Origin: a virus
Virus record (IMG/VR): IMGVR_UViG_3300025417_000005
Coordinates: 1-35,275 of that record
Length of the DNA: 35,275 nucleotides
Direction: 5' to 3' (one strand)
Positions 14,632 to 21,198 of the stretch are shown here, piece after piece. Position numbers and translations under genes: made by a program. The notes under the pieces are model-generated. The model did not search any database, was not told the origin of the DNA, and was given only the letters and a program-made list of their open reading frames with translations. The first letter of the stretch is position 1, and the number at the start of each line of letters is the position of its first letter.

Positions 14632-14708
14632 TGGTGCTCTCATCACGATTTGAACGTGAAACCTTCGCTTTCGTAGAGCGACGCTCTATCCAGTTGAGCT
14701 ATGAGAGC
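14632..14708 (-). tRNA. tRNA-Arg (anticodon ACG)
   Basis: The minus strand folds into a complete cloverleaf: acceptor GCTCTCA / TGAGAGC (7 bp), D arm GCTC / GAGC, anticodon arm TCGCT-CTACGAA-AGCGA, T arm TCACG-TTCAAAT-CGTGA, five-base variable region, discriminator A and an encoded CCA. The anticodon ACG reads CGU and, once A34 becomes inosine, also CGC and CGA. All consensus positions are intact, so it should be functional. Confidence 0.93.
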
Positions 14709-14718
14709 CAACTTCATC

Positions 14719-14799
14719 TGGCATAGGCTCTAGGAATCGAACCTAGTTCTCAAGGTTTTGGAGACCTGCGGATTACCGGCTTCCCCAACCCACTCCAGA
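14719..14799 (-). tRNA. tRNA-Trp-like gene (anticodon CCA), degenerate 5' half
   Basis: The 3' half is good: T arm CTAGG-TTCGATT-CCTAG, acceptor strand AGCCTAT, discriminator G as in bacterial tRNA-Trp, and encoded CCA. The anticodon loop CTCCAAA gives anticodon CCA. The 5' half does not match: no strand complementary to AGCCTAT is present, the D stem has a mismatch, the D loop is long and the first anticodon-stem pair is broken. The 5' end given is an estimate. It could be a decayed tRNA, a recombinant of two genes, or one needing unusual processing. Confidence 0.55.
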
Positions 14800-14805
14800 C
14801 AATCT

Positions 14806-14880
14806 TGGTTGCGGAGGCGGGAGTCGCACCCGCAATCTCCAGCTTATGAGGCTGGCGAGTTACTGTTTCTCTACCCCGCT
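14806..14880 (-). tRNA. tRNA-Met (anticodon CAT), initiator-like acceptor end
   Basis: Anticodon arm CCAGC-CTCATAA-GCTGG is perfect, T stem is GCGGG / CCCGC, and the acceptor pairs GCGGGG with CTCCGC (one G-T). Position 1 (A) faces A72 unpaired, a mismatch at the place that marks bacterial initiator tRNAs, and the 3' end CCGCAACCA matches initiators. However, the three G-C pairs next to the initiator anticodon loop are absent, the D loop lacks the GG pair and the T loop is TGCGACT. CCA is encoded. It may be an altered initiator or a decaying copy. Confidence 0.78.
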
Positions 14881-15701: not shown

Positions 15702-15992
15702 ATGAACAAGTATAACGTCGAGATTACAGATACATTTGCAGGCGAGGCAAATTATTGCTGGGTAAAGCGTGAGACGCTGACTATGCCAGACCTGACTCAC
15801 TATGGCTATGACGGTTCATCCAATTACGTCAAAGCGAATAAAGCCTATCGTCGTCAATTGATCCGCAAAGCAAAGGCCATTGCAGGCTGGACAGGTTTAC
15901 GTTGCAAGGTCGAGGATTATGGCGACCGTATTCGCATCGAGCCTAGCTTTTGCAATGTAATGTTTATTGATTATTCCTACAGTGACGATTGA
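15702..15992 (+). CDS. First early gene, conserved hypothetical (96 aa)
   Basis: The product starts MNKYNVEITDTFAGEANYCW, has a helical basic middle (YRRQLIRKAKAIAGWTG) and a beta-rich end (CKVEDYGDRIRIEPSF). It has no signal, membrane segment or known catalytic motif, and is of the small-protein type common in phage and plasmid early regions. AGGAG lies at ideal distance upstream. Its stop codon is only five bases before the hammerhead ribozyme, so self-cleavage would free its mRNA from the downstream genes. Function unknown. Confidence 0.78.
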   Translation: MNKYNVEITDTFAGEANYCWVKRETLTMPDLTHYGYDGSSNYVKANKAYRRQLIRKAKAIAGWTGLRCKVEDYGDRIRIEPSFCNVMFIDYSYSDD

Positions 15993-15997
15993 TAACA

Positions 15998-16049
15998 GAT
16001 CGAAACGGCTTTCGAGCCGTCTAGCGGTCATGCCGCTACTGATGAGATC
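15998..16049 (+). ncRNA. Type II hammerhead ribozyme
   Basis: All conserved core elements are present in the right order for the permutation open at stem II. They are stem II strand GATC (15998-16001), GAAA (16002-16005) and stem III CGGCT-TTCG-AGCCG (16006-16019) extended by the A15.1-U16.1 pair. Then come cleavage-site C17 (16021, as GTC), stem I TAGCGG-TCATG-CCGCTA (16022-16038), CTGATGA (16039-16045) and closing strand GATC (16046-16049). Cleavage is expected between 16021 and 16022. Stem II is only four pairs, so activity may be modest or need flanking contacts. It separates the first early gene from the second. Confidence 0.88.
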
Positions 16050-16069
16050 AAAAACAATAGGAGTGAAAG

Positions 16070-16270
16070 ATGAAACCGCAATTTACGTTCTACTTTGTCG
16101 ATGAGCCACAATTCGCCAGCCGTGAAGCTCGGCATGTGACTGCCAATCAGCTTTGGTGCTATCGCAAGCACCCTGAGCGGTATGAATTAAAGCGCTTAGG
16201 CCTGCATCGTTATCAAATCCGCATTAATCCTTGGATTAAAAACTCACCTGCTGCAATCATCGAGCTTTGA
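16070..16270 (+). CDS. Early hypothetical protein (66 aa)
   Basis: The product (MKPQFTFYFVDEPQFASREA onward) is basic with aromatic residues and a beta-rich end (RYQIRINPWI). No domain is recognised. It has an AGGAG site, and its 5' leader would begin with the 5'-hydroxyl end produced by the hammerhead ribozyme 49 bases upstream. Early position suggests a host-takeover or regulatory role, but nothing in the sequence shows it. Confidence 0.68.
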   Translation: MKPQFTFYFVDEPQFASREARHVTANQLWCYRKHPERYELKRLGLHRYQIRINPWIKNSPAAIIEL

Positions 16271-16280
16271 GGAGATCATC

Positions 16281-16421
16281 ATGTGGAAGATCAAACGCTT
16301 TACGTCATTTTGTGATCAGCTCGATTGGATCAATCGCAATGATCGACGCTATCAAATCGTCGAGCTATTCGTAAACAATGGCTATGCCGTCGAATACAAG
16401 CCATTGCGTCAAGTTTACTAA
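16281..16421 (+). CDS. Small early hypothetical protein (46 aa)
   Basis: The frame begins ATG at 16281, ten bases after the previous stop, with GAGGAG eight bases before. It encodes MWKIKRFTSFCDQLDWINRN and ends with EYKPLRQVY. The composition resembles short single-domain phage proteins with an amphipathic helix followed by a beta strand (RYQIVELFVNNGYAVEYK). I do not recognise the family; spacing and a strong binding site support it as a real gene. Confidence 0.62.
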   Translation: MWKIKRFTSFCDQLDWINRNDRRYQIVELFVNNGYAVEYKPLRQVY

Positions 16422-16425
16422 TCGC

Positions 16426-16461
16426 TTGACAATCTACAGTGCAGTGTGTTACAGCACTGCA
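16426..16461 (+). promoter_or_regulatory. Candidate internal early promoter with overlapping palindrome
   Basis: TTGACA (16426-16431) is followed after 17 bases by TTACAG (16449-16454), a weak -10. The spacer and -10 overlap the palindrome TGCAGTG-N8-CACTGCA (16440-16461), a typical place for a repressor operator. It would drive the gene at 16505 independently of the ribozyme-split transcript. The -10 is poor, so this is tentative. Confidence 0.38.
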
Positions 16462-16486
16462 TCATAGATTGCCATGTAGAGCAATC
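16430..16486 (+). promoter_or_regulatory. Mutually exclusive stem-loops upstream of 16505
   Basis: If transcribed, CAATCTA (16430-16436) pairs with TAGATTG (16465-16471), enclosing the stem TGCAGTG / CACTGCA. The same GATTG bases also pair in GATTGC (16467-16472) with GCAATC (16481-16486). The two folds cannot coexist, as in attenuators and riboswitch-like leaders. The second hairpin ends close to the ribosome binding site of the next gene. Confidence 0.45.
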
Positions 16487-16504
16487 TTAAACAGGAGAGA
16501 AAAA

Positions 16505-16825
16505 ATGTCTTATAATGGATGGACTAATTACGCTACTTGGCGCGTTAACCTCGAAGTCTTCGACGGCATGGACGTCGAGGAGATGGGCTGGCACAAACTC
16601 GATGTATATGACCTTGCAATGATGATGAAAGAATATGCCGAGGAGATTGTTTGCCCTTTCAAAAAAGGCGAGAACACGCTTGCTGAAAGTTACGCTCTTG
16701 CGTTCTTGTCGGAAGTAAATTGGCAAGAGATTGCAAAGCATTATGTCCAAGAGTTCCTAAGCGATGAGGACAAAGGCGTTCTAGAACAGGCCGCTTGGTA
16801 CGATACCAGCGCAGAGCTTGCTTAA
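16505..16825 (+). CDS. Early conserved hypothetical protein of the NGWTNYATW type (106 aa)
   Basis: The start at 16505 is chosen for its AGGAGAG site and because the protein then begins MSYNGWTNYATWRVNLEVFD, a beginning I know from many small phage and mobile-element proteins of unknown function. The middle is helical and acidic (LAMMMKEYAEEIVCP) and the end is acidic (LSDEDKGVLEQAAWYDTSAE). It is soluble with no catalytic motif. It is preceded by the candidate promoter and alternative hairpins, so its expression may be regulated separately. Confidence 0.75.
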   Translation: MSYNGWTNYATWRVNLEVFDGMDVEEMGWHKLDVYDLAMMMKEYAEEIVCPFKKGENTLAESYALAFLSEVNWQEIAKHYVQEFLSDEDKGVLEQAAWYDTSAELA

Positions 16826-16835
16826 CCAATCATTA

Positions 16836-16860
16836 AGGGGCAGGCGCTATGCTTGCCCCT
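16836..16860 (+). other. Stem-loop before the next small early gene
   Basis: AGGGGCA (16836-16842) and TGCCCCT (16854-16860) form a 7-bp stem with an 11-base loop. No T-run follows, so it is not a terminator. It lies upstream of the ATG at 16885 and encloses a possible alternative start at 16849, which it would hide. Confidence 0.4.
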
Positions 16861-19066: not shown

Positions 19067-19315
19067 ATGACTGACATCAACTTGAGTATCAAAAAGATTG
19101 AATATCTAGAAGATGCGATTGCACAGATGCAGCAGCGCCTCTTCCGAATTGACATCCAATATGGCGAACGCGACTTAATCGCCATTATCACGGATCTCAT
19201 AACCACGTTAGATCACGCGAAAAATGATCTGAAGTGGGTGCGTAAAGAAATGGTCGAGCAGACCTTAACCACTGGGGACTATTCACATGACACACGACTC
19301 GGACTTTACACCTGA
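19067..19315 (+). CDS. Helical hypothetical protein leading the recombination operon (82 aa)
   Basis: The product (MTDINLSIKKIEYLEDAIAQ onward) is almost entirely helical and charged, with LDHAKNDLKWVRKEMVEQ forming a likely coiled coil. No known family. It has a GGAGG site, and its end overlaps the exonuclease gene by 29 bases, so it is translated together with it and could be a small exonuclease partner. Confidence 0.7.
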   Translation: MTDINLSIKKIEYLEDAIAQMQQRLFRIDIQYGERDLIAIITDLITTLDHAKNDLKWVRKEMVEQTLTTGDYSHDTRLGLYT

Positions 19316-20189
19316 GAAGAGACGCTCAGCATGGTGGTCCGGTGACAGCCGCAGAGCCGTCACTGGGCATCTAATTGATGTGATCTTAGAGAAGCGCGGC
19401 GAGAAAGAAATCGCTGATCTCTCCGAGGTAGAAGTGGTGCAGATGGGGCACGTTATGCAGCCCTACATCGGCAAGATCTTTGAGGATACGACAGGCATTG
19501 GCGTTAGAGATTTCGACTTACCTGGCATCCATCCGTCTGAGCAGTGGCTTCGGGCGCATACCGATTTCGTCACTGCCGATGGCGGACTCCTTGAAGTCAA
19601 GAACTACAACGCTTCGACTATCAACAAGTACTCTGAGCCTGACACTGAACTCAGACTACCTCCTGCTGACTTTATACAATGCGTACACGAGGCAACGGTC
19701 TTTGGAGTACCTCATGTCCATTTTGCCGTACTGTTCGGTGGTCAACGGTTTCGCCATTGGCGGGTCGATGTCGACGATGCAATGAAAACCGACTTCATAC
19801 AGCAAGCCGCTAAGTGGTGGGCGCTGTGTCAGGTCGGAGATCTGCCAACACCGGAAACGGTCGAGCAAGCTAAACTGGTCTACTCACGCTCTACCGACGA
19901 GCAGATCATAGCTAACGCAGCCGTCGAGCAGGTTGTGCAGCAGCTCAAGGCCATCAAGGACAACATAAAGGTTTTGGAAGAGCAGGAAGAACGCGCTCAG
20001 TTGATGCTGCAAAACTATATGCAGAGCAAGGGCGAGATTATTGCACCGTCTGGCGAGGTTCTTGTGAGCTGGAAGCAATCCAAATCTACCAAGAGCTTTG
20101 ACAGTAAAGCATTTCAGTTTGAAAACCCTGCCCTATACGAACAATACAAGATTGAAAAACCAGGCTCACGGAGGTTCTTAGTAAAATGA
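19287..20189 (+). CDS. YqaJ-type viral exonuclease (PD-(D/E)XK)
   Basis: The 300-aa product has the fold signature of phage recombination exonucleases: WWSGDSRRAVTGH at the N-terminus, catalytic Asp93 in HTDFV, the E-x-K pair Glu103/Lys105 in LLEVKNYN, and the later helix PADFIQCVHEATVFG with Gln131. After about residue 205 a coiled-coil tail follows (KAIKDNIKVLEEQEERAQL). It would trim DNA ends to leave 3' single strands for the RecT-like annealing protein encoded two genes on, as in lambda Exo-Beta pairs. The stop overlaps the next start as ATGA. Confidence 0.83.
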   Translation: MTHDSDFTPEKRRSAWWSGDSRRAVTGHLIDVILEKRGEKEIADLSEVEVVQMGHVMQPYIGKIFEDTTGIGVRDFDLPGIHPSEQWLRAHTDFVTADGGLLEVKNYNASTINKYSEPDTELRLPPADFIQCVHEATVFGVPHVHFAVLFGGQRFRHWRVDVDDAMKTDFIQQAAKWWALCQVGDLPTPETVEQAKLVYSRSTDEQIIANAAVEQVVQQLKAIKDNIKVLEEQEERAQLMLQNYMQSKGEIIAPSGEVLVSWKQSKSTKSFDSKAFQFENPALYEQYKIEKPGSRRFLVK

Positions 20190-20446
20190 CACAGATGACA
20201 ACAGTGCCGTTGGAAACGGCTGATTTCTTGCTCGGTCGCTTGATCGCAACAATTAAAGCAAACGACGAGTTAAACAAGCAAGTCATTGACTACAAAGAAA
20301 GAAACGAAAGACAGTTTAATTACATTCAAAAGCAGAACGAAGAGATTGCTCTGTTGAGCAAAAGATTGCACGAAGCCACTCAACCGAAAAAGCGCCGTGG
20401 TCGTCCTAAAGGATCTAAAAGCAAAGCAAAGGTTGTAAGCAAATGA
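20186..20446 (+). CDS. Coiled-coil protein with AT-hook-like tail (86 aa)
   Basis: The N-terminal two thirds form a long coiled coil (LNKQVIDYKERNERQFNYIQ, then KQNEEIALLSKRLHEAT). The end has KKRRGRPKGSKSK, with the GRP core of AT-hook motifs that bind the minor groove of AT-rich DNA. It is coupled to the exonuclease (ATGA) and to the annealing protein (overlap of four bases), so it may link recombination enzymes to AT-rich phage DNA. No family name can be given. Confidence 0.72.
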   Translation: MTQMTTVPLETADFLLGRLIATIKANDELNKQVIDYKERNERQFNYIQKQNEEIALLSKRLHEATQPKKRRGRPKGSKSKAKVVSK

Positions 20447-21198
20447 ACAACATTGTTCCGTTTCAAGAACAACAGCACATGGCTGAGAGCATTGTGAAGT
20501 CTAAGTTCTATGGCTTTACAGACATTAATCAGGTCATGGCCGTGATGATTGTAGCGCAGGCTGAAAACAAACACCCTGGCACTGTCGTGCAAGAGTACGA
20601 CATCATTCAGGGTCGGCCAGCTCTCAAGTCTCAGGCCATCCTTGCACGCTTTCAGCAAGCTGGGGGCAAGGTAGAGTACATCACATACACCGATGAGAAG
20701 GTGGAAATGACGTTCTCTCACCCTGCCGGTGGTTCTCTTACACTTGCTTGGACGATGAAACAAGCCGCCTCTATTGGCTTGGCAAGCAAGGACAATTGGA
20801 AAAAGTACCCTCGCGCTATGTTGAAGGCGCGGGTGGTTTCTGAGGGTGTTCGCGCTGTTTATCCGGCGTGCATCCTCGGTCACTATGCTGTTGAAGAAGT
20901 TATGGATTTTGACAGCAAGCCTATCAAACACACGCAGGTTGAGATTGTGCAAGATCTGACAGATCCAGACGATGACGTGCGTGAGGCTTGGGTTGTGTTT
21001 GTGCCAGACGGTACAGGCGGTCGCAAGTTCTATAAAGACTTTGCAACACCGGAAGAGTTTGGGGATGAGATCAAGTCTTTGATTGCTCGCATCAACCAAT
21101 CTAAGAAATCGGACGCTGAAAAGGCTGAGAAGGTTTCTGAGTTACTACTCGTGAATGAAGATTTGCTAGCAAAGGTAAGTGAAAATGGCGACGTTTAA
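20443..21198 (+). CDS. RecT-like single-strand annealing protein
   Basis: The 251-aa protein shows the core pattern of the RecT/Redbeta superfamily. An N-terminal helix region ends in MAVMIVAQAENKHPG, then comes the central strand-rich part (YDIIQGRPALKSQAILARFQ). The conserved block WKKYPRAMLKARVVSEGVRAVYP and GHYAVEEV follows. The C-terminus is charged and acidic. It anneals complementary single strands made by the YqaJ-type exonuclease and supports replication of terminally redundant or permuted DNA. Position in the operon agrees. Confidence 0.8.
   Translation: MNNIVPFQEQQHMAESIVKSKFYGFTDINQVMAVMIVAQAENKHPGTVVQEYDIIQGRPALKSQAILARFQQAGGKVEYITYTDEKVEMTFSHPAGGSLTLAWTMKQAASIGLASKDNWKKYPRAMLKARVVSEGVRAVYPACILGHYAVEEVMDFDSKPIKHTQVEIVQDLTDPDDDVREAWVVFVPDGTGGRKFYKDFATPEEFGDEIKSLIARINQSKKSDAEKAEKVSELLLVNEDLLAKVSENGDV

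Follow-up and report, generated by a model that had tools for sequence, protein, structure and literature searches.

Type II hammerhead ribozymes have been known in bacteria and prophages since 2011, where they cluster around phage genes and have been proposed to process mRNA (PMC3088659). Cleavage of phage-type hammerhead arrays was seen in vitro and, for Agrobacterium, also in E. coli (PMC3088659). The field still regards the role of hammerheads in phage genomes as an open question (PMC6155905). We analysed one such element in a viral record of 35,275 bases, the whole of which is referred to as the window. It resembles the type II hammerheads of bacteria, archaea and prophages (Perreault et al. 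2011, PMC3088659; RF02276) in its core, its permutation and its intergenic site in a phage, a kind of site at which these elements often stand several in a row.

A complete type II hammerhead between two small genes

The original prediction holds: 15998-16049 is a complete type II hammerhead, and its core is intact. When it was read base by base, all parts named in the original prediction were found in place:

15998..16049, + strand: type II hammerhead ribozyme (whole), supported by model R1 built without the window, a sub-cut-off match to RF02276 and the descriptor script
15998..16001, + strand: 3' strand of stem II (GATC), from the sequence, with its partner at 16046-16049
16002..16004, + strand: core G12 A13 A14 (GAA), from the sequence
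16005..16020, + strand: stem III hairpin, A15.1-U16.1 plus 5 pairs and loop UUCG, from the sequence; pairing probability 0.99
16021..16022, + strand: predicted cleavage site, C17 / 1.1, GUC triplet, from the position within the hammerhead
16022..16038, + strand: stem I hairpin, 6 bp with loop UCAUG (UNANG type), from the sequence and the loop consensus of the sub-architecture
16039..16045, + strand: core CUGAUGA (C3-A9), from the sequence; U7 is C in the related phage fragment L274
16046..16049, + strand: 5' strand of stem II (GATC), from the sequence

The 52 nt are parsed as GATC - GAA - ACGGCT UUCG AGCCGU - C / UAGCGG UCAUG CCGCUA - CUGAUGA - GATC. In the DNA, stem III reads CGGCT-TTCG-AGCCG (16006-16019) with the extra pair A16005-T16020, C17 is 16021, and stem I reads TAGCGG-TCATG-CCGCTA (16022-16038). 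Three helices surround the core, with 6 bp plus a U-G in stem I, 4 bp in stem II and 6 bp in stem III, and the required core (C3 U4 G5 A6 N7 G8 A9, G12 A13 A14, A15.1-U16.1 and H17) is complete, in order and standard throughout. The order of the elements is that of the type II permutation, in which loops close stems I and III and stem II is open. The cut had been placed between 16021 and 16022, and this agrees with the predicted site as far as the letters can tell.

The hammerhead starts 5 nt downstream of a stop codon (TGA, 15990-15992) and ends 20 nt short of a start codon (ATG at 16070) that is provided with a ribosome-binding site. Together with the intact core and the order of the parts, these gaps bear out the type II identity and intercistronic position claimed in the original prediction. 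Both the descriptor script and model R1 identify it as the sole hammerhead in the 35,275-base record. The genes around it are as follows:

15702..15992, + strand: upstream gene (gene 1), 96 aa, phrog_22729; PHROG match E 1.3e-31, with relatives in many phages
16070..16270, + strand: downstream gene (gene 2), 66 aa; a homologue in L011 has no hammerhead before it
16281..16421, + strand: small ORF g2b, 46 aa, from translation
16505..16825, + strand: gene g3, 106 aa, with a weak DUF7249 match (Pfam PF23907, E 2.4e-4, below cut-off)

No match was found for gene 2 in PHROG or Pfam, or for g2b in Pfam. Further downstream on the same strand lie genes for a RecE-like exonuclease and a RecT-like annealing protein (19287-20189 and 20443-21198). 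Together with the gene layout, they agree with the early operon to which the hammerhead had been assigned; a promoter scan did no better than shuffles. A terminator scan returned nothing, and no T run follows the hammerhead. On the minus strand, three consecutive tRNA genes occupy 14635-14880; another phage fragment (L278) likewise has three.

Model R1 is a covariance model built from 25 other phage hammerheads, with the window and two same-slot relatives (L003 and L014) excluded. It scores the hammerhead at 66 bits (E 1.2e-19), the single match within the window. Over 289 Alphaproteobacteria genomes, the class of the Bradyrhizobium seed, the maximum besides the seed was 41.5 bits, and just two genomes besides the seed reached E 1e-4 or better. 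A strict descriptor, which asked for a full core, a stem I hairpin of 17-18 nt, 6 pairs each in stems I and III and 4 in stem II, had 0 matches in 240 Mb of dinucleotide-shuffled phage DNA. The Rfam/Infernal check proposed with the original prediction came out only in part: RF02276 (Hammerhead_II) does match at the correct site, but with 26.2 bits (E 5.7e-4, on a search of a 79-nt stretch) the gathering cut-off of 37 bits is not reached, and when longer stretches were scanned, with default or laxer settings, the model returned no hammerhead match in the window. The same-slot hammerheads of L014 (39.7 bits) and L003 (37.1 bits) pass this cut-off.

Among the matches listed, which comprise 151 distinct type II hammerheads, 40 have a 17-nt stem I hairpin; exactly four stem II pairs occur in 38 of these 40, and in 4 loop I forms a pseudoknot with the tail, proportions that describe this sample and are not population estimates, the scan pattern having restricted stem lengths. 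With a stem I hairpin of at least 21 nt, the matches listed mostly have two or three stem II pairs and usually a pseudoknot of four or more pairs. The 17-nt group shares a loop U-N-A-N-G/A and an A preceding stem II, and the window agrees at every such position. The window was searched for the pseudoknot of the Perreault consensus, in which loop I forms at least four pairs with the tail behind stem II, and none was found. The window hammerhead belongs to a pseudoknot-free subset of phage type II hammerheads, defined here by a 17-nt stem I hairpin, a UNANG loop, a 4-bp stem II and an A before stem II, part of which is overlooked by Rfam's type II model. The original prediction had read the four-pair stem II as a hint of partner contacts or a co-factor. 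Given the 38 of 40 above, that reading falls away: four pairs are normal because this sub-architecture combines a 6-bp stem I, a UNANG loop and a 4-bp stem II, mostly with no pseudoknot.

Linkers that outlast their genes

The phage fragment L274 matches the window at 94-95% identity in three stretches (17.08-17.71, 18.53-20.19 and 22.12-24.43 kb) and at 87% in a fourth (20.19-21.98 kb). Three linkers of the window (15993-16069, 16422-16504 and 16826-16860) correspond, at 86-100% identity, to 320-393, 583-667 and 923-957 on the reverse strand of L274:

15995..16057, + strand: linker block with the hammerhead, kept in L274 between different genes with 2 changes, both at tolerant hammerhead positions
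16427..16486, + strand: second conserved linker RNA, TGACAAT - hairpin - GATTGCCA - CAATC, from sequence comparison; 86% identical in L274, between other genes
16826..16860, + strand: third linker, with a hairpin; 35/35 nt identical in L274, between other genes

Of the two hammerhead changes, one is a C to A in loop I, where L274 reads UAAUG for UCAUG, and the other replaces U7 by C. The genes that flank the linkers and those that lie between them show no recognisable relation between L274 and the window (best blastp E 0.043). This phage group thus appears to keep its stop-to-start linkers, the hammerhead among them, while swapping the genes between, and the near-identical pair amounts to a natural experiment with one ribozyme linker and entirely different genes. 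Since the same linker stands between different genes, the ribozyme would serve the joint and not a particular gene, which suggests that the hammerhead linker is a standard joint that cuts long phage messages into single-gene pieces.

With the gene 1 protein (phrog_22729), and not with the motif, 80 phage loci were fetched. In L003 (62 bits) and in L014 (70 bits) the position directly behind the gene 1 stop is taken by a hammerhead; its stems, and the genes that follow it, are different. In L062 (1191-1252), a variant directly after the gene 1 homologue has an extra U between A9 and stem II (CUGAUGA-U-GGC). The same insertion is seen at L076 6839-6910, and a low-scoring match at L074 7088-7159 is possibly another extra-U variant. 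A Bradyrhizobium retamae prophage (L009/L212) has one hammerhead further downstream, at L212 3921-3975. In the TerL relatives MW202753 and MW202825 no hammerhead was found. L001 and L012, with a TerL 90-91% identical to that of the window, retain gene 1 but no hammerhead, which makes the hammerhead an accessory element that the phage can do without. The original prediction had named loss of the core beside conserved flanking genes as grounds for its own rejection, and the comparisons run both ways: L274 keeps the ribozyme beside other flanking genes, whereas L001 and L012 keep gene 1 and lack the ribozyme.

Two fixed associations were considered and ruled out. A tie of the ribozyme to the downstream gene fails on gene 2 of L011, which has no hammerhead, and on the hammerheads of L003 and L014, which follow gene 1 before different genes; a fixed tie to gene 1 fails on L274, L001 and L012.

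A set of 120 phage loci was gathered with one seed pattern and searched with a relaxed scan that allows one core change. The scan yielded 118 intact hammerheads, 52 of which remain once one per locus is set aside, versus 4 with a changed core; one of the four is a second reading of an intact copy, and the other three are all U4C, a change reported to be tolerated in vivo (PMC3088659). Conservation this near to perfect points to selection on the core in phage copies, because a role as DNA only or as a plain hairpin would make core changes common. The first base of most phage hammerheads falls between -2 and +5 nt relative to a stop codon; a stop lies at most 30 nt upstream in 75% of them versus 10% of random positions, and a start with a ribosome site at most 60 nt downstream in 83% versus 23%. 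In L128, L177 and L205, consecutive genes are parted by one hammerhead per gap across most of the array. These three, like L113, L135 and L166, are phage operons that carry between 4 and 9 type II hammerheads, with one in the majority of their gene gaps. Covariation in our set A2 is partly circular because the script picked paired stems, and weight is placed instead on the copies in L003, L014 and L274, which were found through protein or whole-genome similarity. The earlier proposal that the hammerhead splits a polycistronic transcript gains support from the shared slot in L003 and L014, the conserved core and the gene-gap arrays, all of which are comparative evidence.

The second linker (16427-16486 in the window) is one of about 29 similar elements in phage contigs. 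Its own TGA ends the upstream open frame in 22 of 34 pattern matches, and a start codon mostly follows 14-34 nt downstream, often at a distance of about 20 nt. The outer and inner stems have changed on both sides, the conserved boxes being imposed by the search pattern. In L016 it occupies the gene 1 stop, that is, the slot of the window's hammerhead. Copies were recorded at L001 3500-3556 and 4021-4081, L011 5202-5260 and L012 5922-5981, and further ones at L016 4364-4427 and L239 5196-5254 and 5509-5567. No Rfam family fits the element; a weak match to freshwater-2 (RF02980), absent from two other copies, was taken as chance. Its GATTGCC is able to base-pair with the flank on either side, 5' or 3', so that the element is possibly a switch. 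Tentatively, and with somewhat less than even confidence, we picture the early operon as exchangeable genes joined by a few standard stop-to-start RNA linkers, the hammerhead being one and the second linker an undescribed RNA in a like slot that may be another processing element or a switch set by the terminating ribosome.

Proposed function and competing explanations

We consider it probable, judging from sequence and comparison, that the 52 nt form a working type II hammerhead, which sits in the gap between two small genes, cuts their polycistronic mRNA and belongs to a retained set of linkers. Hammerhead chemistry leaves a 2',3'-cyclic phosphate on the upstream product and a 5'-OH on the downstream product. 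Once transcribed, the ribozyme would fold through its own stems and cut between 16021 and 16022, so that the upstream mRNA would end in the stem III hairpin with a 2',3'-cyclic phosphate and the downstream mRNA would start with the stem I hairpin and a 5'-hydroxyl. Both products would be hairpin-capped because stem II is the open stem, and neither end should be readily attacked by exonucleases or by 5'-end-dependent RNase E. The upstream and downstream parts may differ in stability, as the original prediction proposed. By its topology, only the type II permutation would yield an upstream product that ends in a closed hairpin (stem III) and a downstream product that begins with one (stem I), which would suit a device that cuts and caps both. 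Because the ribozyme starts only 5 nt after the stop codon, inside the footprint of a terminating ribosome, that ribosome would cover stem II, and cleavage would probably be delayed until a gap between ribosomes.

In nearest-neighbour folding, stems I and III are very stable, with pairing probability near 1. When the upstream flank is included, a competing outer helix that involves the stop-codon region is slightly favoured (-20.0 versus -18.5 kcal/mol) and the pairing probability of stem II is about 0.2; without this flank the hammerhead structure wins. In this fold model, ribosomes would time cleavage more strongly in the window than they do in L003 or L014, owing to the competing helix. The same helix counts against a functional ribozyme, as do the hammerhead-free L001 and L012 and the promoter scan that did no better than shuffles. 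In addition, when Perreault et al. assayed 18 hammerheads that match the consensus, no cleavage was seen for 4 of them (PMC3088659).

It is unlikely, in our estimate, that the linker is instead retained as DNA, a short homology for recombination or cassette swap aided by RecE/RecT-like proteins, with the ribozyme a passenger or one gap filler among others. Three different linkers are 86-100% kept between the window and L274 with unrelated genes intervening, and the RecE-like and RecT-like proteins encoded by this phage could act on such short homologies. However, mere homology would not preserve a catalytic core amid diverging stems in unrelated phages (52 intact versus 3 core-changed), nor would it put both L274 changes at tolerant positions. 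The DNA role and the ribozyme role are compatible. We hold it quite improbable that the element does not cut and acts as a pair of stable hairpins behind the stop codon, shielding the upstream mRNA or making transcription pause; the high stability of stems I and III would suit such a role, but the missing T run and the empty terminator scan do not, and the conserved unpaired core, H17 and the order of the parts would be left without explanation. A degenerate or chance hammerhead-like sequence with no activity would fit the RF02276 score under the curated cut-off and the lack of a hammerhead in L001 and L012, but it is barely credible, since the 0 matches in shuffled DNA, the 66 bits from an independent model and the 289-genome background maximum exclude a chance origin and the L274 copy is altered at tolerant positions only.

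Relation to described hammerheads

The window's hammerhead departs from most published type II hammerheads (PMC3088659) in its 4-bp stem II, its 17-nt stem I hairpin with UNANG loop, the lack of a loop I-tail pseudoknot and a score of 26.2 bits, under the 37-bit cut-off. The triple hammerhead around ardA in Agrobacterium tumefaciens (PMC3088659, Figs S2, S3) likewise flanks phage genes, and that one cleaves in vitro and in E. coli; there, several ribozymes surround one gene, whereas the window has a single ribozyme in a 35-kb record. The HHphage of haloviruses HF1 and HF2 (PMC3088659) also lies in the early region of a tailed virus. It stands 13 nt before a start codon, with a transcript end mapped at the cut, and its core is a variant tied to high salt, whereas the core in the window is standard. 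Types I and III with classical loop-loop contacts (sTRSV, Schistosoma) have another permutation; the conserved U of loop I and the A beside stem II in the window would be compatible with the conserved reverse Hoogsteen contact of those types (PMC6155905).

In the open-licence literature we did not find the stop-codon spacing statistic, the subset with UNANG loop and 4-bp stem II, or the retention of a linker with both neighbours exchanged, although they may have been described before in other papers. Phages with one hammerhead per gene gap make the reading of the hammerhead as a joint directly testable by end mapping. The window hammerhead is a new case of an RNA type known in phages since 2011, with interesting linker behaviour.
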